A stretch of 43,194 nt of DNA from a virus, in IMG/VR virus record IMGVR_UViG_3300044641_002409, positions 1 through 43,194 of that record. One strand, 5' to 3'. The position numbers and the translations under genes are program-made. Numbering within the stretch: position 1 is the first letter of the stretch; the number at the start of each line of letters is the position of its first letter. Under the pieces are notes generated by a model that saw only the letters and a list, made by a program, of their open reading frames with translations, was not told the DNA's origin and searched no databases. This document shows, in pieces, positions 5,733 to 42,607 of this stretch.

Positions 5733-5934
5733 TCACAGTATGGCCCTGAGCCTTATCGTATACAACCTTATCGCCCTCTTTAATGCAGTCAACAGCCTCA
5801 CCGGGCATAACAACAATACCTTCCTGGTATCGTGCGTTTACAGCCTCGTTGTTAGATAGGATGAGTCCAGTCATAGACTGGACTTCGGACGCTACTAACT
5901 CACTAACTAATACATAGTTACTTAGTACTCTCAT
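5674..5934 (-). CDS. groES: GroES-like co-chaperonin
   Basis: 86 residues, a little shorter than the roughly 95 of bacterial GroES. The order of elements is right: NYVLVSEL (residues 6-13), a mobile-loop region with a hydrophobic tripeptide (GLIL, 23-26), YQEGIVVMPGEAV (36-48), the conserved IKEGDKVVYDKAQGH (51-65) and the closing strand YRMILLRDVAIVL. In the family this protein caps the GroEL cavity through the mobile-loop hydrophobic residues. It starts within the last 17 bp of the groEL gene, so the two are coupled, but the order (groEL first) is the reverse of the bacterial groESL operon. Its 3' end overlaps the rightward winged-helix gene. Confidence 0.88.
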   Translation of the reverse strand: MRVLSNYVLVSELVASEVQSMTGLILSNNEAVNARYQEGIVVMPGEAVDCIKEGDKVVYDKAQGHTVTIDGQTYRMILLRDVAIVL

Positions 5935-7492
5935 AGTCTCTAACGTTTGTTATAATTGCGTTTGTACTCAGGATAGTTGTTGCTACAGATACAGCGTTCT
6001 TCAGAACTGTACGTGTAACCTTAGTTGGATCGATAACACCCATCTTGAACATATCGCCATAGCGATCGTTCTTAACGTCATAACCGATCTTCTTATCCGT
6101 TAGATTAACGGATACCTCAACGACATCTTTTCCGGCATTCTCAAGAATTCTTTTGAATGGCTCAACAATGGCATAGTTCATAATAAATACAGCTGCGTTG
6201 TAGTCATCATCATCAGATATAGGGCATCCCCTCATGCTATTCATAAGTGCAATGCCTCCACCCGGTAGGACTCCCTCCTCAATGGCAGCCTTAACAGCTA
6301 ACACAGCGTCATCCGTTCTGTCCTTCAGCTCCTTCTGCTCGATGTCAGAGTTCGCTCCAACATAGATGACTCCTACACCACCAGAGATGTTAGCAATTCG
6401 CTCCTTCGTGAAGTTTATGTCATCCTCGTCAGTCTTGTCAGCAATGCTATCCTTAAGGTCGTTCAAATGCTTTGTAATGTCCTCGTTCTCCTCGTAGAAC
6501 GGTATAATGATAGTCTTGTCCTGTCCAACTATAACCTTAGATGCACGACCCAGTCCTGCCATTGTAACTGTTGCGATGTTATCACCGGCTGCACTGGAGT
6601 AGAAGTGTCCTCCAAGAGCGATAGCCAAATCAGTCATCAGCTCGTCCTGACGGTACCCCATGCTCGGAGGTATGATGTTGCATGCCTTGATGCGCCCCTC
6701 GTACACGTTCTTGTTCAACGTACCGATGGTAGCCAGGTTAAGCTGTCCTATGACAAGCAATGACTCTCCACGCTCAACGATAGGCTGTAAGATAGCCACC
6801 ATGTTGTCAAGGTTAGTGATCTCATTGTTAGTTATCAACACCCATGGGTTGTCCAGAACGCACTCGTTCTTCTTAACGTCATTCACAAAGAAGCGACTGC
6901 TGAACCCACGATCAACCTTGATACCCTTAACAACCTCTGCATATGTCTTCGTTGTCTTAGAGTTCTCCACAGTTACGTGAGATACCTCTGAGTAGGTGTC
7001 AGCGATAAGCTTCCCAAGCTTTGGATCGTTATTAGCAGAGATCGTTGCAACGTCTAACAGTCTCTTTCCACTCACATCTTTAGACATCTTCACAAGGTTC
7101 GCATCCATCTTGTCTGCAACCTCTCCAATATACCTCAAGACTTGAGTTTTGTTGCAATCATCTGTGATGTACACCTCAGCACCATCGATAATTGCCTCTG
7201 TTAGTACCACCGATGTTGTCGTTCCATCACCAGCCTGTACAGCTGTCTGTGATGCAGCCTGTCTGACAAGCTGTACGGCCAAGTTCTCAACCGGATCAAT
7301 CAGGTTGATACCCTTTGCTACCGTTACACCGTCCTTTGTTACTGTAATACCACCGATGTGGTGCTCTGACTCCATGAGAACCGTATTTCCCTTCGGTCCT
7401 AGCGTCGATCCAACTGCCTTGGAGATCGTCCGAATGCCAGTCTTCAATTTCTCCCGGCCTTCAGAGTCGAATAATAACTTTTTTACTATCAT
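5918..7492 (-). CDS. groEL: Phage GroEL-type chaperonin (HSP60)
   Basis: 524 residues, close to the full length of bacterial GroEL. The nucleotide-binding and catalytic signatures are intact: LGPKG (31-35), DGVTVAK (54-60, equivalent of Asp52), GDGTTT (88-93, equivalent of Asp87), DDAVLAVKAAIEEGVLPGGG (394-413, with the Asp398 equivalent) and a C-terminal equatorial helix before NAIITN. The apical domain (about 190-370) is diverged. The Gly-Gly-Met tail of bacterial GroEL is absent; the protein ends RDYESTK. It should therefore form an ATP-driven folding chamber working with the adjacent GroES-like protein. Position next to tail-fibre genes suggests phage structural proteins as clients, which is an inference. 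The start ATG at 7492 follows a hairpin-rich 100-bp spacer. Confidence 0.95.
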   Translation of the reverse strand: MIVKKLLFDSEGREKLKTGIRTISKAVGSTLGPKGNTVLMESEHHIGGITVTKDGVTVAKGINLIDPVENLAVQLVRQAASQTAVQAGDGTTTSVVLTEAIIDGAEVYITDDCNKTQVLRYIGEVADKMDANLVKMSKDVSGKRLLDVATISANNDPKLGKLIADTYSEVSHVTVENSKTTKTYAEVVKGIKVDRGFSSRFFVNDVKKNECVLDNPWVLITNNEITNLDNMVAILQPIVERGESLLVIGQLNLATIGTLNKNVYEGRIKACNIIPPSMGYRQDELMTDLAIALGGHFYSSAAGDNIATVTMAGLGRASKVIVGQDKTIIIPFYEENEDITKHLNDLKDSIADKTDEDDINFTKERIANISGGVGVIYVGANSDIEQKELKDRTDDAVLAVKAAIEEGVLPGGGIALMNSMRGCPISDDDDYNAAVFIMNYAIVEPFKRILENAGKDVVEVSVNLTDKKIGYDVKNDRYGDMFKMGVIDPTKVTRTVLKNAVSVATTILSTNAIITNVRDYESTK

Positions 7493-14042: not shown

Positions 14043-14478
14043 TATGAAACTAGGAGAACATTACTCGGATGGCGTTGGGACGATCCTACGAGTAGCAAAG
14101 ATTGACAAGGATGGCTCACCATCGTTCGTAACGAATGACAACAGGACGGGTTACATATTGAGTTCGGATGGCTACATTCGTTTCACTAAGGAACACGCTA
14201 TGACGTTCGAACAGGTCGAGATGCCTATCGTCATGCCGGTCTATCGGTTGATCGCTGTTGGGTTTATCAACGCAACGGATGGCAACATGGCGAGGGTTCG
14301 TTTGACGAACATTAATAAAGATTGGGAGGGCATTGTGATACCTCATCTTGAGCGATCGTTCATGGACGATGCCGTTATGTATTTGAATAGGTTAGGCATT
14401 CGGGTGATCGGTCGATCTGACCATGGGAATATATTGATCACTGACGATTTGGATACACCCCTTGTACATGAGAGATAG
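14026..14478 (+). CDS. Unknown protein (150 aa)
   Basis: 150 residues opening MKIKVSMKLGEHYSDGVGTI. A beta-rich N-terminal half (RVAKIDKDGSPSFVTNDNRT, YILSSDGYIRF) is followed by a mixed half with VMPVYRLIAVGFI and VIPHLERSFMDDAVMYLNRL. GC-richer codon use (many CGA, GAT, GTT) than the adjoining small genes. I do not recognise it. An alternative start is the internal ATG at 14044. The -33 element of the promoter for the downstream structured RNA lies inside its last codons. Confidence 0.6.
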   Translation: MKIKVSMKLGEHYSDGVGTILRVAKIDKDGSPSFVTNDNRTGYILSSDGYIRFTKEHAMTFEQVEMPIVMPVYRLIAVGFINATDGNMARVRLTNINKDWEGIVIPHLERSFMDDAVMYLNRLGIRVIGRSDHGNILITDDLDTPLVHER

Positions 14479-14492
14479 GTTATTTATATTTG
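14462..14492 (+). promoter_or_regulatory. Bacteroidota-type promoter of the structured RNA
   Basis: TTG at 14462-14464, exactly 20 bp, then TATATTTG at 14485-14492. It overlaps the 3' end of the upstream gene and there is no ORF that starts just downstream, which points to a dedicated RNA gene. Confidence 0.8.
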
Positions 14493-14496
14493 CATG

Positions 14497-14887
14497 ATAA
14501 GTAGCCCGAAGTACAAGGGAACGAAGCCATGTGGGGCATACCGTTAGAACTGCTCTCACACCGAATCGTTGGTCGGCAAAGTTTTGTAGGTTTCTTTGGT
14601 GTGTTTCTAAAAAAACTTATATATGTGTTGTCCTCTTGAGAAAAGGACACTTAAAACATGTAGAGACATAAATAGTGCTACACAACACAGGTGCTCTCAA
14701 CATCAAACCCGTGTCGTTCCCTTGAGAAAGGAATTAGACTGTAAGAAGCTGTTACAGATAAGAATTACCCGACACAGAGGGCTTCTCATCCTCAACAACA
14801 TACCAATGAGATTTTTAAATCTCCTACTTACTTACGCAAGGAAGGATTTGGTAGGTGGCACCATATAGTAGTGACGGTGCCTTTTTT
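14497..14887 (+). ncRNA. Large structured non-coding RNA with its own promoter and terminator
   Basis: About 390 nt between an exact promoter and a strong terminator, with no plausible ORF. Helices that I can pair by eye: 14557-14565/14595-14603; 14624-14629/14684-14689 enclosing the hairpins 14630-14634/14644-14648 and 14659-14663/14678-14682; 14693-14698/14777-14782 and 14711-14716/14770-14775 enclosing 14717-14720/14730-14733 and 14739-14744/14752-14757; 14784-14789/14806-14811; 14823-14827/14851-14855. Two of the hairpins have identical 9-nt loops (CTTGAGAAA at 14635-14643 and 14721-14729). TCTCAA (14695-14700) and TTCTCA (14783-14788) could pair with these loops. The size, ornate fold, phage setting and nearby tRNA recall the GOLLD and ROOL classes, but I see no sequence match to either. 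Confidence 0.75.
14857..14887 (+). terminator. Strong intrinsic terminator of the structured RNA
   Basis: GGCACC (14857-14862) pairs with GGTGCC (14876-14881), followed at once by six T residues. Confidence 0.9.
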
Positions 14888-15435: not shown

Positions 15436-15498
15436 GTCAGGTGGAGGAATGGTAGTGAATGATACACGTTAAATCACATTACCATTCCAAAACTTGAC
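15436..15498. repeat. Long imperfect hairpin with tRNA-like sequence
   Basis: GTCAGGT (15436-15442) pairs with ACTTGAC (15492-15498); inside, GGAATGGTA pairs perfectly with TACCATTCC and GTGA with TCAC. The segment GGAATGGTAG also occurs in the D-arm of the tRNA-Leu-like gene at 16039, so it may be a tRNA-derived relic or a mobile-element end. Its right arm overlaps the -33 box of the promoter at 15494, so the fold could also act as a terminator for the upstream gene. Confidence 0.5.
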
Positions 15499-15524
15499 TT
15501 TTAATAAAAAGGTTCGTATATTTG
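15494..15524 (+). promoter_or_regulatory. Bacteroidota-type promoter of the HNH gene
   Basis: TTG at 15494-15496, 20-bp spacer, TATATTTG at 15517-15524; the HNH start codon at 15545 is 20 bp further on. This rules out the longer ORF start at 15494, which would lie upstream of the transcription start. Confidence 0.75.
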
Positions 15525-15544
15525 TGACTACAAAATATAAGTAT

Positions 15545-15958
15545 ATGCAAAGGTTCTTTGATAAAATAGATAAAACTGATACTTGTTGGTTATGGACAGC
15601 AGGATTAAGAGGTAAGACAGGATATGGTGCATTTAAACTTAATGGTAAAGTTGTAGATGCACATCGTATATCTTATGAATTACATAACGGTATAATTCCT
15701 GATGGAATGTATGTATGTCACACTTGTGATAATAGAAAATGCGTAAACCCTAATCATCTATTTCTAGGTTCTCCTAAAGATAATTGGCAAGATGGGTTTG
15801 ATAAAAAAAGAATTAAACCATTAGGAGGAATAGATACAGAGAAACTAAAAAAACATCCAAGCAGAGGCGCATATCTTAGAGGGTGTAGATGTGAAGAATG
15901 TAAAGCTATCAATAATATGATGGTTAAAAGATATAGGGAAGGATTAAAAAAGAAATAA
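15545..15958 (+). CDS. HNH homing endonuclease (HNH_3 type)
   Basis: 137 residues from ATG 15545. The opening FFDKIDKTDTCWLWTAG and GYGAF (26-30) are the usual start of small HNH_3 endonucleases. Core residues: AHRISYELHNG (39-49), VCHTCDNRKC (57-66), NPNHLFLG (68-75) and the DNWQDG motif. The beta-beta-alpha metal site is thus complete (His40, His59, His71 and Cys pairs). A C-terminal GCRCEEC zinc knuckle follows (113-119). Such proteins nick or cut DNA site-specifically and spread as free-standing homing genes. It has its own promoter, lies directly upstream of the unusual tRNA-like gene and is more AT-rich than the core genes. Confidence 0.9.
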   Translation: MQRFFDKIDKTDTCWLWTAGLRGKTGYGAFKLNGKVVDAHRISYELHNGIIPDGMYVCHTCDNRKCVNPNHLFLGSPKDNWQDGFDKKRIKPLGGIDTEKLKKHPSRGAYLRGCRCEECKAINNMMVKRYREGLKKK

Positions 15959-16038
15959 TCCTGTCCTGACTACAAAAAAAATGCTATTGTGGGAGTGACT
16001 TACTTCAACCCTCTGACGGCTCGGAAAGACGAGCATTT

Positions 16039-16176
16039 GGTGAGATGGCGGAATGGTAGACGCTACTGCATGGTGACAGAAGTTTGGTACGACCCGTCAA
16101 ATTAGTTGAAATGTACTAAGGGGTACGGGCAACGTAAATGAAGCTAAACATACAGGTTCGAATCCTGTTCTCACCA
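16039..16176 (+). tRNA. Oversized tRNA-Leu-like gene (138 nt, anticodon unclear)
   Basis: The acceptor stem is perfect: GGTGAGA (16039-16045) with TCTCACC (16169-16175). The D-arm TGGCGGAATGGTAGACGC (16046-16063) is of the leucine class-II type and the T-arm ACAGG-TTCGAAT-CCTGT (16152-16168) is perfect. But 88 bases lie between the D-arm and T-arm, about 50 more than in a normal tRNA-Leu, and I cannot fit a standard 7-nt anticodon loop. Candidates inside are CTG-CATGGTGA-CAG (16066-16079) and CCCGT/ACGGG (from 16093). Either an intron-like insertion is present or this is a tRNA-like RNA. A terminator follows at 16212. Confidence 0.6.
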
Positions 16177-33520: not shown

Positions 33521-36500
33521 TTATTCTTGTTTGTATTCTAATGCTGGTAGCTCTCCAGATAGTAAGGTATTTATATCCTTCTTACTCATTCCGGCATCTT
33601 CTTTTAGAGAGTTTACAAGAGATTCATAATCAACTCCTAATCTCTCAGCTGAGTCATAAGCTCCAAGTATCTCTTTGTAGATCTTATCAAGTGACCTTTG
33701 AGAGTCATCATATGCCTTATCTACATCCTCTTGAGTTGCTTTCTCACTGTAGTATTTAGAGTTATAGATTCTCTTAGCGTCCTTAATTCTGTCCGATAGC
33801 TCAGCCATCTTAAATGAGAACTGCTTATCAACCTCAACGTCATAGATTCGGTATCCAGTTAGATTAGCTGCAAGCTCAGCCACTTTATTTTCAGCTTTAG
33901 CTCCTCTTCTTATTGACGATACTGTACCAGGTTCAGCAATACTATATATGTAACTTGTTATATCTCTTGTCTTATTAAATGTATTATCTGCCGGGTTCCA
34001 AATCTGATTACCATACTTATCAATGTTATTGTATAAGTTATTTACTGCTTCAACGCTCATCTCTGTTCCTAAGAATGGTTGAACGGCTGCAAGTAAACCA
34101 TCAATAAATTTCTTTTCAGTTGTCTCTCCATTCAAGAATGCATTCATTGCCTTTCTTAATCCTCCATGTGGATCAGCTGAACTAAAGTCGATGTACTTTA
34201 TCTTACCATCACCAGCAGAAAGAACAATAAGATCCGAATCTTTAGACCATTCCGGTATGAACTTACGAATGTCTTTATCTTTTTCTTTCTCATCGTCATC
34301 ATCTCCCAAAGCACCCATAATACCAGTTAATCCGGTTCCTGCAGCCATTCCTACGGCTGATATTATAGCACTCTTAGCAGTTAGATAGGTAGATGCTCCA
34401 ACCAATCGTTTAGCACCTATCTTTTTAATCTCAGGGTTATCTGACTTAAGTTCTTCTGTTGCCAATGCAAATGTATTATACAATGTACGATATGCCTCTG
34501 CCTGGAATGATATGAAGTTACCAAGTACGTATGACTTACTTATCAACTTAATGGCAGCAGGAATTCTATCGTAAGAAGGATATGTGTTTTTTACATTTTC
34601 TACTGCTACTTTTTTAACTTCCTCTAACTCATCTGGAGTTAGTTTAGATTTATCATTGCCATATAATGCTTCAGCATATCTTGACAACTCCATCTCGTAT
34701 CCAATGATTTTAAAGAAATCATCCTCAGCCTGATACCAATCCTCAACTCCTTTTTTGAATTTAAGTGCTCTTCTTTTAGCTATTCCAAGTTTTCCAGCAT
34801 CGTGCATTGATACACGTTTTGCTAGTGCAATATCGAAGTTTGCATCTTTAAACATGTCACGAATCTCATTAAGACCTGCAGATTGGTTTACAACACCTGC
34901 CTTAATGTATTCAGCCATCTTATTTTTAAGCTCTTCTTTATTACCTTTGAATAATTCGTTTCGAATAACTGAGAATGAGTTTGCAACCTCTTTAGGAGAT
35001 ATATGTCCGTTCATCCACATGAATCCGATGTTACCAAAGAAGTTTTTAAAGTGAGTACCAACAGATGCAATAGTTTTAGAGTATTTAACAGCAGACTGTA
35101 TCTTTATAAGCGTCTTAATCCATCCCTGTAGATCTTTGCTATTGAACTCATTCTCAAATGCCTTAGCAATCTCTTTAGTTGTCATAAGACCGTTCAATGG
35201 AGCCATTACCTCAGATTTATCTGCAGCTATCTTAGTATCGAACTCTTTAGGACGATTGACATCATTCTCTTCAAAGAAGTATGTACCAAGTCCCTCCTTT
35301 TTAATTTGTGATAGGAAGTTATGCTTAGCTGCCAAGTTAGCAAGCTTCATAACTGTCTCAGCATATGTAAGTGCTGGATCTGAGTACTCACCCATCAACG
35401 CTCTGATTTCAAAAGGTATATCCTGTCTTTCTTTAAGTATAGATAGATCCTTTGATCCAAGCTTAGATGATGAGAAGAATCGGCTATTTTCAGGACGATC
35501 AATTATCTTGTTTATCTCCTCGTCAACCAATCTTTCAAGTTCGAACTCTACAGTCTCACCTGTTTTTTGAGCGATCTCTTCAGCCCATGATCTATATTGA
35601 GATCTTAAGAAGTTTTTAGCTGTCTGTACAATATCATCTTGAACCTCATCTTTCCAATTCTTTCTATCAAATACAGCATAGGATCTTGTAAGATATGATC
35701 CTATATTATCCATTATTGTTTGAGCCATATCCTCATCAACAACTCCGGAATCAATAAGCATTTTAGATAGACCATCGATCTGGTTACGCATGGATCTTGC
35801 AAGAATCTTGAAGTCTTCAGGAAGATCTACATTTTGATCTCCTCTAAGATATGCATCAAAGTTTTTCAATAGCTCCTCCTTATCTCCATCGTACTTAGAG
35901 TACATTCTACTAAACTTATCCGTATTCTTATCAACTAAGAACAACTGGTGCGCAATAGACGCATTCATTAACTCCTTGTATCTGAATACAGATCTTGGTA
36001 GGAATCCTCTTGATGATAATGCTTTCTTTCTGAATGACTTAAATGATGACTTAATACTATTCTTTCTTGTATCATTATTAGCTAAAAATACATCCTCAAT
36101 ACTTAAGTTATAGTTAATTATTGCGTTATTTGCCTGACGGAATGTGTATCCATTATTTCTAAGGTACTGAACTATAGCTGCATCAGAATATCCTGCATCC
36201 TTAGCCTTCTTAACAATTTTAGCTACAGTGTTGTCCTTCTGCTTTCTTATCGTCTGATCCATTGAGTCAACCTCTGACTTAATCTCCTCAGCAGTAGGTA
36301 TAATCTTAGTAATACTTCTTGGGCTTCTCTCGAAGTTTATAGATCCAGAACCTCCGTCACCCTTAAACTCGATGTTAGGGCCGTCAATAGCAGTAACCTT
36401 AGCCTTCATTCCATACACCATCACATCGTCACCAATCTTATATCCTTCAGCCTCTCTTGGCTTGAACTCGATGTTTCCTTCAATAGGTGTCAACTCCTTA

Positions 36501-39500
36501 GTAGTCTGTGCTCTGAACTCGTTGTTTCTCCACTTAGAGATCAACATGTCGTAACCATTATCGTTCGCCACCTTAGCGATCCATGCCGCCTGGTAGTTAG
36601 GATTGAATGCCTGTCCTGGACGAACCTTCTCGAACTCCTTCTTAGCTTGATCATAGAAGTTCTCTGAGTCCTCCTGTAGGTAGTACACCTTATCTTTAGG
36701 TACAACGACAGTGTGCAACACTGGTCCTACACCCGGTTCAGCCTGATCTGCCATCGTGTAGTACTGAGCTACACCACCAACAGAGCTTAGTGCTGACGCT
36801 TCGTCCTTACCTGTGATGATATTGTCTCCAGATCGAGGCTTGATCGTCTCTCTCTGTTGTTTTGAGTAGTGATGGAACACTATGTTTCCGTTCTTATCTT
36901 CAGTCAGTTTATCAGACACCTCTTTAGGAAGGGCTTTCTGCTTGCGGATGGATGGTTTTCTTCCTGTTTCAGATGTATCTGGCATCCTTACTGGTGTAGC
37001 CTTATCTGATCTTCTTCCTACTTTAAAGAAAGGATTAGGTACGTTCCATTCTTCAGCCATATCTCTAACAGAATTAAATGTTGAAGGTATGCCTATATTC
37101 TTACCAAATAAAACAACAGGATATGATGTGTGAGTTAAGCTATCATCTATAGTTCTAATCTCAACACCCATTTCTTTTGCTCTTTGAGATTCCCTTTTTG
37201 ATACAGGAACAGTACTATCTATACCTATGACATCTAGTTTTGGATCTAAATACTTAACTATATCATGAGTTTCAGCTTCTTTTGTGTACTGCTCTGTAGT
37301 CTCATTATAGTACTCACTAAGAGTAGGTATACCAGATTCCAACCATGTTACAACATAAGGTTTTGTTGAAGAAGTTATTTTTAGATTTGCTTTAGATGGT
37401 ATAATTGTAGCATTAAATTTACCTCTTCTTTCAAATGATACATTAGATATTCTATTAAAGAATTCATTAAGTGAGTTAAAGTCATTAGATGTAAAATCTA
37501 AAGAACTTTCAGCACTTTGACCTTTCTTTGTTGAAGCGTATGAATCAACTGCTTCTTTAAGCATACTAACAGCTTGTTGCTCTGTTATTAATCCATCTTT
37601 TACTGCTTGAGCTATAACTCCATCCTCTGGAGAATAAAAATCTCTTTCTGTTGTTTTATTTCCAAGGTGTCCTGTTTCTTTATTTTGAAGTGTTACTCCT
37701 ACGACAGCATTTTCTCCAGCTGTTTTATTTCTAGATCTTACGCCTTGTATAAGGTTTAATGCTTTTGTTACATTTGTGAATGCCGCAATAATACCATTCT
37801 TTTTTATTTCTTCTCTATAAGAAAATCCTGGGCCTCCTTCTCCTTCTCTTTTTATTATACTTCCAGAAACTCTGTTTTTTAGTTCATATGGTGAACTTGT
37901 AAAGTTATCGTAGTATACAATCTCTAATGGCTTACCTACTAAATTTTTTGGATCTATAATATCTGACTCTTTTATTACAGTATTTACAACCTTAGATTTT
38001 CTTACAGATGGAGTATCTACAACTGTTCCATTAGTATTTACATACTCGTTCTCAAAAAGATTACCATTATCTACATCATCTATTACCTTAACATCAGCCT
38101 CAGAAATAACTTTACCTTTAGAGACCTTACGAGCGATTGTATTGAGCATGTCATACACCTCGTTGCGATTGAAAGGTTCAAGACCGAACATGTCAGCAAG
38201 TTTATTCAACCATCGAGTGATTATATCCTTTACAGATGTAGGAGCCTTTTCATAATACTCAGCTAAAGCTCCTACAAGCTCAGCTAATTTTTCTTCATTC
38301 TGTATATTTTCCTCGTATCCAGATGCGAAATCCTCTAAATATTTTTTTAGTTTTGGATTATCATCAATTTTAGATGCGATAGCATTGATCATTCGTTTAG
38401 TTACAGCAGCTGCATTTGGCTCACCAATTCTATTAATTAATACAGCGTGGAATAATTCATGAGCTACAGTTCTTCTATTTGCATAATCTAAGTTTACATG
38501 AATAGTATTTGTAGAAGAATCAAATAAACCACCAATTTTTTCATCTCTACCTTCACCTGTCGCTCTTACAAAAGAATCATTGTTTTCATGAACGACAAAC
38601 TTCACGTTAGGAAGAATCTTAGATAGAGCCTTAGCTGCTCTGGCAACAATCTTAGCTGCCTTCTTGTTTGATAGTTTCTCTACATTCTGATCGATCTCTT
38701 GATCTGTAGATCCTAAGAACTGACCTAATGACTCTACTTCGGTCTGTATATTTTCACCAGTTCCTCCTGTATCTATTTCTACACCATTCTCAAGATCAAA
38801 TATTGCCTTTTGATTATACCTAATAGCTAAATCAATTGCATCCTGTTTATTTTCTTTTCTTGTTGAAATATCGATATAAGTCTTACCAGAAGATTGATCG
38901 AACCATGTTCCTATGAAGTTTTCAGGATCACTTAATAGATCCTTGTTATCCTCTCTAAATGCATCCAGATCTTGCTCTGTTATATCCTTACCGTCAACGA
39001 TCATCGTTCGGTCCGGATGAACTGATACAGAGAATCCTGGCTTACCGAATAGATCCTCTCCTGTCTGGCTTATGGACGAACCTCCCTGTTCGTTGTGTGT
39101 ACTTACTGTTTTTTGTTTTGAAGCTTGTACAGTATCTGGAGTTACTTCATTCAATCCTTTATTTTGAATTTCTTGTAACTTTCTATTTATTACGTTAGCA
39201 GCATCTTGTTCTGTAAATCCATCAGACTCAAACTCTTCTTTAACTGAACCTAACAATTCATTGAAGGAACCTCCTTGATCTGTATAAGCTCTTACTGATT
39301 CCCTTAATTTTAATGCATCGGCATACAAAGTTGATGGATTTCCAAAGAAAGCATCTTTAAAATCTTTTTTAGCCTCTTCTTTACTTACTTCATTTGAATA
39401 TTTTTCTGCAACTTGTTTTGTTTGTCTAGCATCAGATTTATCAATATAAGAACCAAACCCATTAGGCATTTCTTTATCCTTAACTAATAAATCATCAATA

Positions 39501-42500
39501 ATATTATTAACTTCATTCAAAGGAGTATTTAATACAGATTGCCATTCTCTTTTTTCTAGTTCTTTATCAATCTCATTAAATTCTTTTCTATCCTCTTCTT
39601 TTGTTGATGGTTCAATTTCAAATTGTCTTTTCTCTAATTCATCAATTGACATATTTTTAATGTCAATAGTTATAGGACTTACTTTTTCTTCTTCGCTTGG
39701 CTGTAAGCGATCGCCAAGATTTGTGCCCGGCTGCGTGGTTTCCCGTTGGCCCCCTTCGCCTTGCCCGACTTCTTGTTGTCCGCCATTAGTTCCTTCACGT
39801 TGAACGATACCGCCTTCTGTACCGACTTCTTGCTCTGCGATGTTGCTTTTTTTAGTGGCATCTTCTGAGATTTTAGTTAGTTGTGTATTTATTTCAGAGA
39901 TTCTGGCTCTCTGTGCAGCCGTCAGACTTTCGTCCTTACCTTCGATTTCTTTTTGTAGTTTGTTTCGCTCTGTTATAAGACCTACAGATTCTTTTAGATC
40001 TTTACCAGTAATGTTATCAGGTATACCTTTAAATGTAGACTCAAGCTCATTTACTGCATTAAGCTGTGCTTCAGCCTCAGATTTAGTCATCTTGCCAGTG
40101 AGCATGTTTGTCTTAAGCTTAGCAACAAACATCTTTTTTACTTCTGAGTCTTCAGATAGTCCTTTCAAGAACTCTACATCCTTTTCATTATATAGGCTTA
40201 TACCACCTCTAAATATTCTTTCAGCACCAGTACTAAGTGATGTTAATGCAAAACCACCTACAGCCTCAGCAGCAGCATCTTTTGCAACTTGTGATACTCC
40301 AGCCATAAATGAATCAGGTGTATCAAAGTATTCACCTTGAGTTAATTCTTCTGCTGTCTTTCCATCATTAGCTTCTTTTATTGTATTATACAATCCTTTT
40401 AGCCCTATATCAAGAGCAGCAGATTGTAATGCTCCTGTTTCTGCTTCAGCTAATGTACCTCCTACAACACGTATACCAAATTTAGCTATATTAGATTTTA
40501 TCTCTTTATTTATTACATTTTCTATAACTTCTTTTGATGCGTCTCCTCCTATTTTTTTAACTGCTCCAACTATTGATTTTGTTATCAATGATTTAACCAA
40601 AGGATTTTTAGACATTGCAGTTGTAATACCAAAATTTTCTAATATACCCATGCCTATAGCATAAGGCAGAGCAACAGAAGCTCTTTCTTTAGCTGTAGTT
40701 GTTTCAAAGTCAGAATCTTTAAGCATTTCTTCCTCTATGGAACTGTATGCCTGAGCACTTAGAGCGGACATTCTTGAAATTGCACCTCCAGGCATTATCA
40801 TTCCTGGCAATGACTGAGCCACTCCAGCAAATGCTTGCTCAAAAAATCCTCTATCTTTTGACTCTGCATACTCCTTAGTAGTACCAGAAGTACCAAATGC
40901 TTCTATTGCTTTCTTTCTTCCTTCTTCTATCCTAGCTAGTGAATTCTTATTTATTATATATTGTTCAATTTCTTGCTTGTTGTATCCTTTATTTTCAAGT
41001 CTTTTCTTTTCTTCTGGATCTAATGTCTCATATTTATCATTAACTAATGACTCAGCTTTTCTCATTCCAGATATTAATGGACTTTGTTCAAATATCTGAT
41101 CTACTCCTGTAACAAAGCTATTAAGCATGTTCCCAAGAAAACTTCCTGTTTTTTCTTTATCAATTAAATATTTACCAGCAACTGTCTGAAGCTTATTCAT
41201 ATCTGAAACTACTTTATCTCTTTCAGATTTAATTTCTTGTCTTCTGCTATCTAAATATTCTGCACGTGTATTTATGCTATTTGCTAAAGACTCATATTCT
41301 TCTTGACTAATACTTCCGGATTTAACTCTTTGATTTAAGTCTTCCTTATCTTTATTAAACTGATAAATTGCAGCATCTAATTTTTTATAAGATTTAGCTA
41401 CATCACTTAACTGTATATTATAATTATCTGCTTGTTTATTTATTAATTTATCAGATAGATATGTATCTATTTTAGCTTTTATTTCTTTTTTTTCTTCAGA
41501 TGTTTTTGCATTCTTTAAATCATAATATAATTGACCTACTTTTTCTGAATGTTCTTTTGACTTTTGATCTAATCTATCTTTGTATACCTTGTATGCATTT
41601 GAGTTATAATATTCAGATATTTCTTTTTTAATTTTTATCTTTTCTTCTGGGGATGCACCAAACAATCTTTGATTAAATTCTTCTTTATTATTTTTTATTT
41701 GCTCTTCTAACTCATCATAACTTAATGATTTTAAATCATTAACATATTCATCTGATTTTCTATATTGTCTCCATTGTTTAGCTGCTTGTTCTTCCTGATC
41801 TGGAGTTAAATTAGGATTAAATAAATAATTACTAAGTCCTTTTAGTTTTTGACCAACAACAGTTTGAGCAGATTTATTTCCTTCAAGAAATGATTTAAGT
41901 TTTAAGGCCTCATCAGGATTTGCTTCATCTAATCCTACCTCGATAGTATTTCCGTTTTTAGATGTTACCTTAACATAGTCAGTTCCTAATCCAGACTGTT
42001 CGAAAGTAAATCCTAACTTACCGTATTGACGTTGAAGGTATGGAACTACCTTCTCTTCTGTTTTAGAAATAAGTTTAGAGTTTATATCTGTGAACTGAGG
42101 TCCTTTTTCTTCAATCTGTACAGCAGTAGGAACTTTTACATTCTTACCATAATACTTGTTAAGATATGATACAGCACCTTCATCACCTACATCCTGCCAT
42201 TTAGTAGAGTTAGGAACTAATCTCTGCCATTTGTTATTTACGACTCTATACTGGTTTTCCTCTTTTGTAGGAAGCCCAGTAAATATCTCAGCTTGCTTCG
42301 TACCAGAAGAAACCGAAGGCTTTTGACCTTTCTGAGGAGGCGTAACCGATGAAGTATTTTCCGGCTTTTGTTCGGATTGTAATTCCGTAGTTCCTTTTTT
42401 TTTTACGTATCCTAACTTAGCTCTGAATGAATCGAAGTCAACATCATTATGAAATGTGCTATCGTTCTGTCCGATCCAATCGTACATATTTTTAGAATAT

Positions 42501-42607
42501 CCTACATCTGACATTTTAGATTTGAACTCGTCAACACTAACGTCATTCTTAAAAGTCGGATCAATTCCGGCTATGTAATCATACAATTTTGAAGTATATC
42601 CAGGCAT
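33521..42607 (-). CDS. Giant polyvalent virion protein with metallopeptidase motif (3,028 aa)
   Basis: One uninterrupted 3,028-codon frame. The N-terminus has two copies of a ~35-residue unit (YTSKLYDYIAGIDPTFKNDV and YSKNMYDWIGQNDSTFHNDV). Long charged coiled-coil regions follow (about 240-490), then a Gly/Ala-rich part (about 590-830). A metallopeptidase-type HELFHAVL lies at about 1383-1390, preceded by an IHVNLDYANRRTVA strand. A FHHYSKQQRETIKP domain is at about 1908-2040. The C-terminal ~900 residues resemble large-polyvalent-protein domains (LPD38 type): SVGTHFKNFFGNIGFMW and a hydrophobic segment near 2740-2765. Such proteins are usually packaged and injected with phage DNA. No polymerase motif was found. 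AT and GC content vary along the gene, a sign of mosaic assembly. Confidence 0.85.
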   Translation of the reverse strand: MPGYTSKLYDYIAGIDPTFKNDVSVDEFKSKMSDVGYSKNMYDWIGQNDSTFHNDVDFDSFRAKLGYVKKKGTTELQSEQKPENTSSVTPPQKGQKPSVSSGTKQAEIFTGLPTKEENQYRVVNNKWQRLVPNSTKWQDVGDEGAVSYLNKYYGKNVKVPTAVQIEEKGPQFTDINSKLISKTEEKVVPYLQRQYGKLGFTFEQSGLGTDYVKVTSKNGNTIEVGLDEANPDEALKLKSFLEGNKSAQTVVGQKLKGLSNYLFNPNLTPDQEEQAAKQWRQYRKSDEYVNDLKSLSYDELEEQIKNNKEEFNQRLFGASPEEKIKIKKEISEYYNSNAYKVYKDRLDQKSKEHSEKVGQLYYDLKNAKTSEEKKEIKAKIDTYLSDKLINKQADNYNIQLSDVAKSYKKLDAAIYQFNKDKEDLNQRVKSGSISQEEYESLANSINTRAEYLDSRRQEIKSERDKVVSDMNKLQTVAGKYLIDKEKTGSFLGNMLNSFVTGVDQIFEQSPLISGMRKAESLVNDKYETLDPEEKKRLENKGYNKQEIEQYIINKNSLARIEEGRKKAIEAFGTSGTTKEYAESKDRGFFEQAFAGVAQSLPGMIMPGGAISRMSALSAQAYSSIEEEMLKDSDFETTTAKERASVALPYAIGMGILENFGITTAMSKNPLVKSLITKSIVGAVKKIGGDASKEVIENVINKEIKSNIAKFGIRVVGGTLAEAETGALQSAALDIGLKGLYNTIKEANDGKTAEELTQGEYFDTPDSFMAGVSQVAKDAAAEAVGGFALTSLSTGAERIFRGGISLYNEKDVEFLKGLSEDSEVKKMFVAKLKTNMLTGKMTKSEAEAQLNAVNELESTFKGIPDNITGKDLKESVGLITERNKLQKEIEGKDESLTAAQRARISEINTQLTKISEDATKKSNIAEQEVGTEGGIVQREGTNGGQQEVGQGEGGQRETTQPGTNLGDRLQPSEEEKVSPITIDIKNMSIDELEKRQFEIEPSTKEEDRKEFNEIDKELEKREWQSVLNTPLNEVNNIIDDLLVKDKEMPNGFGSYIDKSDARQTKQVAEKYSNEVSKEEAKKDFKDAFFGNPSTLYADALKLRESVRAYTDQGGSFNELLGSVKEEFESDGFTEQDAANVINRKLQEIQNKGLNEVTPDTVQASKQKTVSTHNEQGGSSISQTGEDLFGKPGFSVSVHPDRTMIVDGKDITEQDLDAFREDNKDLLSDPENFIGTWFDQSSGKTYIDISTRKENKQDAIDLAIRYNQKAIFDLENGVEIDTGGTGENIQTEVESLGQFLGSTDQEIDQNVEKLSNKKAAKIVARAAKALSKILPNVKFVVHENNDSFVRATGEGRDEKIGGLFDSSTNTIHVNLDYANRRTVAHELFHAVLINRIGEPNAAAVTKRMINAIASKIDDNPKLKKYLEDFASGYEENIQNEEKLAELVGALAEYYEKAPTSVKDIITRWLNKLADMFGLEPFNRNEVYDMLNTIARKVSKGKVISEADVKVIDDVDNGNLFENEYVNTNGTVVDTPSVRKSKVVNTVIKESDIIDPKNLVGKPLEIVYYDNFTSSPYELKNRVSGSIIKREGEGGPGFSYREEIKKNGIIAAFTNVTKALNLIQGVRSRNKTAGENAVVGVTLQNKETGHLGNKTTERDFYSPEDGVIAQAVKDGLITEQQAVSMLKEAVDSYASTKKGQSAESSLDFTSNDFNSLNEFFNRISNVSFERRGKFNATIIPSKANLKITSSTKPYVVTWLESGIPTLSEYYNETTEQYTKEAETHDIVKYLDPKLDVIGIDSTVPVSKRESQRAKEMGVEIRTIDDSLTHTSYPVVLFGKNIGIPSTFNSVRDMAEEWNVPNPFFKVGRRSDKATPVRMPDTSETGRKPSIRKQKALPKEVSDKLTEDKNGNIVFHHYSKQQRETIKPRSGDNIITGKDEASALSSVGGVAQYYTMADQAEPGVGPVLHTVVVPKDKVYYLQEDSENFYDQAKKEFEKVRPGQAFNPNYQAAWIAKVANDNGYDMLISKWRNNEFRAQTTKELTPIEGNIEFKPREAEGYKIGDDVMVYGMKAKVTAIDGPNIEFKGDGGSGSINFERSPRSITKIIPTAEEIKSEVDSMDQTIRKQKDNTVAKIVKKAKDAGYSDAAIVQYLRNNGYTFRQANNAIINYNLSIEDVFLANNDTRKNSIKSSFKSFRKKALSSRGFLPRSVFRYKELMNASIAHQLFLVDKNTDKFSRMYSKYDGDKEELLKNFDAYLRGDQNVDLPEDFKILARSMRNQIDGLSKMLIDSGVVDEDMAQTIMDNIGSYLTRSYAVFDRKNWKDEVQDDIVQTAKNFLRSQYRSWAEEIAQKTGETVEFELERLVDEEINKIIDRPENSRFFSSSKLGSKDLSILKERQDIPFEIRALMGEYSDPALTYAETVMKLANLAAKHNFLSQIKKEGLGTYFFEENDVNRPKEFDTKIAADKSEVMAPLNGLMTTKEIAKAFENEFNSKDLQGWIKTLIKIQSAVKYSKTIASVGTHFKNFFGNIGFMWMNGHISPKEVANSFSVIRNELFKGNKEELKNKMAEYIKAGVVNQSAGLNEIRDMFKDANFDIALAKRVSMHDAGKLGIAKRRALKFKKGVEDWYQAEDDFFKIIGYEMELSRYAEALYGNDKSKLTPDELEEVKKVAVENVKNTYPSYDRIPAAIKLISKSYVLGNFISFQAEAYRTLYNTFALATEELKSDNPEIKKIGAKRLVGASTYLTAKSAIISAVGMAAGTGLTGIMGALGDDDDEKEKDKDIRKFIPEWSKDSDLIVLSAGDGKIKYIDFSSADPHGGLRKAMNAFLNGETTEKKFIDGLLAAVQPFLGTEMSVEAVNNLYNNIDKYGNQIWNPADNTFNKTRDITSYIYSIAEPGTVSSIRRGAKAENKVAELAANLTGYRIYDVEVDKQFSFKMAELSDRIKDAKRIYNSKYYSEKATQEDVDKAYDDSQRSLDKIYKEILGAYDSAERLGVDYESLVNSLKEDAGMSKKDINTLLSGELPALEYKQE
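39679..39861 (-). CDS. Candidate nested gene inside the giant gene (60 aa)
   Basis: On the same strand as the giant gene but in another frame: MPLKKATSQSKKSVQKAVSF to ILAIAYSQAKKKK, ATG at 39861 and TAA at 39681-39679. It resembles a common small phage protein family of the plan MPLKKGxSxxxIxxNIxxMxxxGxPxxQAxAIAxxxAxKxxKK: Lys-rich start, a middle N-V-K-E-L-M helix and a final A-I-A-Y-S-x-A-K-K-K. The giant frame here is low-complexity Gly/Glu/Gln (GQGEGGQRETTQPG). Local GC content is distinctly higher than on either side. No Shine-Dalgarno site is seen, as is usual in this host group. Confidence 0.6.
   Translation of the reverse strand: MPLKKATSQSKKSVQKAVSFNVKELMADNKKSGKAKGANGKPRSRAQILAIAYSQAKKKK

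Follow-up and report, generated by a model that had tools for sequence, protein, structure and literature searches.

The tRNA cluster of phage T4 gives rise to stable RNAs C and D, small non-tRNA RNAs of unknown function. Type III antitoxin RNAs such as ToxI are small, pseudoknotted tandem units that neutralise a nuclease. Larger structured RNAs have also been described in phages: GOLLD is phage-borne, often lies near tRNA islands and makes intermolecular contacts through kissing loops, its function being unknown, and ROOL is found in phages and prophages near tRNA islands and forms homo-oligomers with kissing loops (PMC12286853). Phage RNAs encoded near tRNA islands have posed an open question of function since the description of GOLLD and ROOL.

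We analyzed a stretch of 43,194 nt, hereafter the window, which covers positions 1 to 43,194 of the virus record IMGVR_UViG_3300044641_002409. Its proteins include DUF3127, a BT4734-like N domain, GroEL and an HMO-2011-like structural protein, and from these and the promoter type described below we infer a phage of Bacteroidota. The GroEL-type chaperonin gene (5918-7492) lies on the minus strand, as does a 3028-aa reading frame (33521-42607) with almost no family match. A sequence-only reading of the window had proposed that positions 14462-14887 encode a new class of large phage RNA. That a structured phage RNA is encoded there is borne out by our analysis; the single large molecule is replaced by a tandem of independent units. 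We consider it likely that this small transcription unit yields four independent, transferable structured RNAs that are released and act in trans (Table 1).

The promoter claimed for this stretch is present, with TTG at 14462-14464 followed after exactly 20 nt by TATATTTG at 14485-14492, an arrangement that we take to be the Bacteroidota-type promoter. The upstream protein gene has one close relative in IMG/VR, on contig L002, where the same promoter element precedes unit A; TATATTTG also precedes unit A in L038. Between the flanking genes, L002 and the window have in common the promoter, ~25 nt at the start of the RNA and a downstream motif, CCGAATCGT..GTCGGCA.AGTT, and little else of the stretch. 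The promoter segment (14461-14498) also matches eleven Bacteroides crAss-like phage records at a site without an annotated gene (84.6% over 38 nt; a weak match, E-value 0.5), which is probably the common promoter consensus. The claimed terminator is likewise in place: GGCACC (14857-14862) and GGTGCC (14876-14881) form a G+C-rich stem of 6 bp followed by six T (14882-14887), delimiting a structured RNA of ~387 nt from promoter to terminator.

Table 1. Features located in the window (+, plus strand).
Feature	Position	Strand	Evidence
Promoter, TTG + 20 nt + TATATTTG	14462-14492	+	Sequence read directly
Unit A, ~117-nt structured RNA, five predicted helices including a pseudoknot	14503-14619	+	Covariance model, covariation
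Unit A hairpin P1, CCC[GAAGUACAA]GGG, with palindrome GUAC in its loop (proposed dimer contact)	14505-14519	+	Palindromes vary by lineage
Unit A P4 (14578-14581/14594-14597) and pseudoknot UAGGUUU (14587-14593)/AAACUUA (14613-14619)	14578-14619	+	Checked in window; helix 5 covaries
Unit B copy 1, P1 GUGUUG/CAACAC, hairpin UCCU[CUUGAGAAA]AGGA, then variable hairpin	14625-14704	+	Covariance model, helices checked
Unit B copy 1, 3' hairpin GGUG[CUCUCAA]CAUC; predicted kissing UUGAGA/UCUCAA	within 14625-14704	+	Helices checked
Unit B copy 2, P1 GUGUCG/CGACAC, CUUGAGAAA hairpin	14711-14793	+	Covariance model, helices checked
Unit B copy 2, hairpin GAGG[GCUUCUCAU]CCUC; predicted kissing UGAGAA/UUCUCA	within 14711-14793	+	Helices checked
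Unit F, P1 UACCAA/UUGGUA, hairpin GAGAUU/AAUCUC, conserved CUUACUUACG.AAGGAAGGAU	14797-14881	+	Pattern in relatives, compensatory changes
Unit F last hairpin, conserved loop AUAUAGUAGUGAC	within 14797-14881	+	Pattern in relatives
Intrinsic terminator, last hairpin of unit F + six U	14857-14887	+	Helices checked in window
tRNA-like element, anticodon and variable arms replaced by ~90 nt	16039-16176	+	Rfam tRNA, 38.2 bits

All of the helices named from the sequence, at least nine, could be located in the stretch. Its folding energy is weak evidence taken alone (z = -1.6 on the plus strand, -3.2 on the minus strand), and minimum-energy folding was weakly informative, missing the pseudoknot of unit A; the case for structure therefore rests on the comparison of relatives. 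The same comparison makes it next to impossible that the stretch is a short coding region. Frames of 36 aa (14529-14639) and 81 aa (14623-14868) do exist in the window, but frame and length vary freely among relatives, and the window and L002 already differ in frame. The variable part of unit A occurs in all three length classes modulo 3, and any frame at all is open across it in only 22 of 62 relatives, in keeping with the earlier statement that the stretch has no plausible ORF.

Unit A provides the richest comparison. Scanning viral contigs with AGTACAAGGGAACGAAG returned 30 stretches, mostly true copies, and a scan with CCRAATCGTNNGTYGGCACAGTT, in which the 5' hairpin was left unconstrained, returned 65; more than 60 copies are distinct. 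The covariance model matches the window at 14501-14619 with 76 bits, the window sequence being among its training set. In an alignment of 29 diverse copies covering 19 pairs in five helices, 18 pairs show changes on both sides, as opposed to 10 after shuffling. Paired cells amount to 90.2% (71.0% when shuffled, 48-50% when slid by one column), and 114 cells carry two-sided changes compared with 35 when shuffled (0/500). Units B and F covary as well. P3 alternates between CCGA/UCGG, CCAA/UUGG, CUGA/UCAG and UCAA/UUGA, and P4 between CAG/CUG, UAG/CUA and CUG/CAG, with AAAG/CUUU in the window. A pseudoknot joins the P4 loop with the 3' end of the unit, in variants that include GCAAC/GUUGC, UGUGUGU/ACACACA, UAGGUUU/AAACCUA and GUCCCC/GGGGAC; its pairing averages 6.3 bp within a molecule versus 3.7 bp with swapped partners (0/10000 permutations). 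Altogether, these comparisons show that the predicted fold of unit A, pseudoknot included, is maintained across its copies. Most of the invariant letters (GAACGAAGA, AAUCGU, CACAGUU and CUGGGG.UA) lie outside the helices, an indication that they form a binding or active core.

The 5' hairpin of unit A, P1, follows a different rule: its loop sequence changes while its self-complementarity is kept, through at least nine different palindromes. Depending on the lineage, the loop carries GUAC, GCGCGC, CUGCAG, CCGCGG, UGAUCA, UGGCCA, UGCGCA, ACGU, AGCGCU, AGUACU or GUGCAC. Using loop letters taken out by hand, we counted, among 19 distinct loops, 18 with a palindrome of 4 nt or more (mean 7.2 and maximum 15 in 20,000 shuffles) and 11 with one of 6 nt (shuffled mean 1.6, maximum 8). 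When a single loop was kept per palindrome, 9 of 12 had 6 nt, a count reached in none of 200,000 shuffles. The palindrome of the window has only 4 nt, and the loop of L243 has none. Self-complementarity that is constrained without a fixed sequence is the mark expected of a kissing-loop homodimer, and this pattern strongly suggests that unit A forms a homodimer through its 5' hairpin loop. Dimer contacts, raised in the sequence-only reading, are therefore likely; their predicted place is this palindromic loop, in a hairpin which that reading did not name. This makes a precise, testable prediction, namely that unit A dimerises through a palindrome that can be swapped.

The hairpins that had drawn attention belong to unit B. 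The two identical CTTGAGAAA loops are present together with complementary strands, TCTCAA (14695-14700) and TTCTCA (14783-14788). These partners are real, but each loop is predicted to pair inside its own unit B copy, and the repetition reflects a duplication of B; neighbouring copies are also found in L222, L240 and L244. Unit B occurs in more than 120 viral contigs with the general form GUGUUG-UUCC[CUUGAGAAA]GGAA-variable hairpin-CAACACA-GAGG[ACUUCUCAU]CCUC. A covariance model trained on other copies and on copy 2 of the window, with copy 1 left out, recovered copy 1 with 50.5 bits (E 3e-8). Among 46 model matches, two-sided changes affect 8 of 13 pairs. The two copies of the window differ compensatorily in P1 (GUGUUG/CAACAC versus GUGUCG/CGACAC) and in the 3' hairpin (GGUG/CAUC versus GAGG/CCUC), showing that these predicted helices are maintained. 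Loop-loop complementarity of at least 5 bp within the same copy is found in 45 of the 46. Because the loops are nearly invariant, compensatory support for the kiss comes from one clear and one weaker change. In the L176 copy, CUUGAUAAA stands with UUAUCAA, a two-sided change from GAGA/UCUC to GAUA/UAUC that keeps the kiss. We consider it strongly suggested that each unit B copy closes on itself through this loop-loop contact.

Unit F recurs in L183 and, by pattern, in five further contigs (L229, L323-L326). Its P1 takes the forms ACCAA/UUGGU, ACCAU/AUGGU, ACGGU/ACCGU and ACGGA/UCCGU, and its last stem varies around a constant loop, AUAUAGUAGUGAY. Compensatory changes in P1 and the last stem (L183, L229, L323) show that these predicted helices, too, are preserved. 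A run of U turns the last hairpin into a terminator in the window and in L325; in L229 and L326 it lacks the U run and leads into a tRNA-like gene.

On the evidence of these relatives, the stretch is an array of four units, A-B-B-F, that appear independent, and not one RNA. Most loci with unit A have neither B nor F, and in L021 a terminator directly follows A; B and F are found elsewhere with other neighbours. A precedes B in L007, L240 and the window, and B precedes A in L072, L156, L159, L163, L243, L244 and L260. It is this varying order, and the frequent presence of A without B, that argues for an array and shows that the units are shuffled among phages. A single promoter and a single terminator enclose the whole stretch, as would be expected if its ~390 nt were a single large, ornate molecule of a new class resembling GOLLD or ROOL, with loop-receptor contacts made across it by the CTTGAGAAA hairpins. 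We find such a molecule quite unlikely, as every unit is seen without the others and in different orders, and the B copies pair within themselves. No complete A-B-B-F run was seen among the relatives found.

The units are embedded in tRNA islands. A tRNA or tRNA-like gene starts ~4 nt 3' of unit A in 33 of 62 copies, compared with 1.7% of random positions, and same-strand tRNAs also end just 5' of unit A. Across unit A loci, 467 tRNAs lie on the same strand as A and none on the opposite one. In the sequences compared, A and the tRNAs are thus packed tightly, head to tail. The setting near tRNA genes that had been noted for the window is clear in these relatives; in the window itself, where ARAGORN found no ordinary tRNA and units A, B and F contain no cloverleaf, it is indirect, through the tRNA-like element at 16039-16176. 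The close spacing on either side of A, always on one strand, would also fit an element that acts in cis on tRNA operons, as a leader or in their processing, for example as a boundary for RNase P, RNase Z or RNase E. This is an unlikely account of unit A, since 39 of 40 virus records of up to 345 kb hold one strong copy although their arrays hold tens of tRNAs, the tRNA that follows varies widely (Gly, Glu, Met, Ser, Pro, Ala, Thr, Asn), and A is followed by the terminator in L021 and by a protein gene in L005 and L024. The palindromes of P1, and units that seem mobile between phages, might instead point to an element acting as DNA, with palindromes and hairpins serving as recombination, packaging or protein-binding sites. 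This is very improbable: the conserved unpaired core, the pseudoknot complementarity, the fixed strand relative to the tRNAs and the embedding in tRNA transcription units fit RNA.

At blastn sensitivity, units A and B had no match in 50,697 isolated phage genomes. The exact core of unit A occurs in one contig among 84,980 species genomes, the 17.8-kb L200, binned as an Erysipelotrichaceae MAG.

Downstream of the array, the window carries tRNA-shaped shells. The element at 16039-16176 has its own terminator at about 16220, and in L002 the shell is kept with a different insert. Shells of the form AGTCAGG..GGCGGAATGGTAGACGC ... CAGGTTCGAATCCTGTCCTGACT are found at this position of the window, twice in L002 (1010-1117 and 1182-1307) and in L033-L149, in at least 120 viral contigs overall. 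In place of the anticodon and variable arms they have 50-90 nt. The 103 distinct inserts fall into 79 sequence clusters, and some insert families look structured themselves; no insert was found in common with unit B. We tried reading the inserts as ordinary introns, but ARAGORN in intron mode gave anticodons unrelated from element to element, so this reading is not convincing. A first shell (15437-15972) is split by a gene (15494-15958) for a 154-aa HNH_3 protein, for which no RuvC domain was reported when IscB and HEARO omega RNAs were considered. As the shell is intact at the matching place in L002, this gene looks like a homing-type insertion. A conserved hairpin, TGACNGCTYGGAAAGACRAGCA, lies at 16013-16034 and in 25 further places, usually directly 5' of a shell, and its stem covaries (GCUCG/CGAGC, GCUUG/CAAGC, GCACG/CGUGC). 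A further element, ACCTGTACCCTTGAGAAACTC...GCAGGT..AGCTCC..AAGGGTA..GGAGC, occurs in L107, L137 and L323 and upstream of unit A in L016, L019 and L030; it also carries CTTGAGAAA and a possible UACCCUU/AAGGGUA pseudoknot. The shells with their inserts are possibly a larger story than units A, B and F.

We propose that A-B-B-F would be transcribed as one run that ends at the terminator formed by the last hairpin of F. Each unit would be a transferable RNA gene, placed in other phages between tRNAs or tRNA-like genes. In most phages, processing of the flanking tRNAs (RNase P, tRNA 3' processing) would free the units; in the window, the array would rely on its own promoter and terminator instead. 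The units would then act in trans, with the unpaired core of A binding a protein or RNA of host or phage origin. Elsewhere in the window, antisense matches to A, B, F or the tRNA-like element were no more than in shuffled sequence. What the units do can be proposed with low confidence only: they may interfere with an RNA-targeting defence of the host, or with its machinery for RNA processing or translation, a guess made because phage tRNAs already counter tRNA-targeting defences (PMC10264068, PMC11555353) and because the neighbouring shells carry hypervariable inserts. On a possible but doubtful reading, the units would counter host defence as decoys or antagonists, binding as mimics to tRNA-cleaving nucleases, toxins or other defence proteins that bind RNA. 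Packing with tRNAs and rapid diversification around constant shells would suit such decoys, but the core of A, far from evolving fast, is strongly conserved, no defence gene was linked to the units, and the support is circumstantial. More broadly, and still tentatively, units A, B, D and F and the tRNA-shaped shells might be interchangeable RNA-gene cassettes that large uncultured phages insert into tRNA operons; released by tRNA processing and in part dimerising, they would together serve as an arsenal for counter-defence or host control. If the units are trans-acting, the RNA biology between uncultured viruses and their hosts would have a large layer that has gone unstudied.

Known RNA families do not account for the stretch: a comparison with Rfam, including GOLLD, ROOL, OLE and HEARO, reached none. 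At gathering score, the tRNA at 16039-16176 was the only match in the window, and a permissive search of the stretch gave two chance matches. In 20 relatives with unit A, Rfam recognised only tRNA, tmRNA and freshwater-1. L025, a 345-kb virus record with unit A, has a tmRNA match at 6539-6864 (68.6 bits) near a large tRNA array. E-value searches with Rfam 15 returned nothing for unit A of L025 and, for the unit B region of L064, nothing beyond the tRNA shells that flank it and a PreQ1 match due to chance. We did not find the units described in published work on phage structured RNAs near tRNAs, a survey of incomplete coverage that does not prove priority.

P1 of unit A resembles the HIV-1 dimer initiation site hairpin in its short stem and purine-flanked palindromic loop, and the L189 loop, AAGCGCGCA, is presumably the same as the subtype B loop; the palindrome of unit A takes at least nine sequences, however, and its hairpin is followed by a pseudoknotted core. 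This likeness implies no common descent. ToxI differs in fold, and no toxin gene was seen adjoining the units. T4 RNAs C and D are also small non-tRNA RNAs from a phage tRNA cluster; to our knowledge they are confined to a single phage lineage and have no known sequence relation to the units. GOLLD and ROOL have in common with the units the tRNA-island setting and the likely use of kissing loops. GOLLD, however, often exceeds 800 nt and forms a cage, and ROOL, at ~660 nt, has a different fold and gave no match, whereas A, B and F measure 80-120 nt. The units would add at least three families, of a size that allows synthesis and probing in vitro, and A, B and F would be phage structured RNAs of tRNA islands, as GOLLD and ROOL are, in the form of small, interchangeable units.
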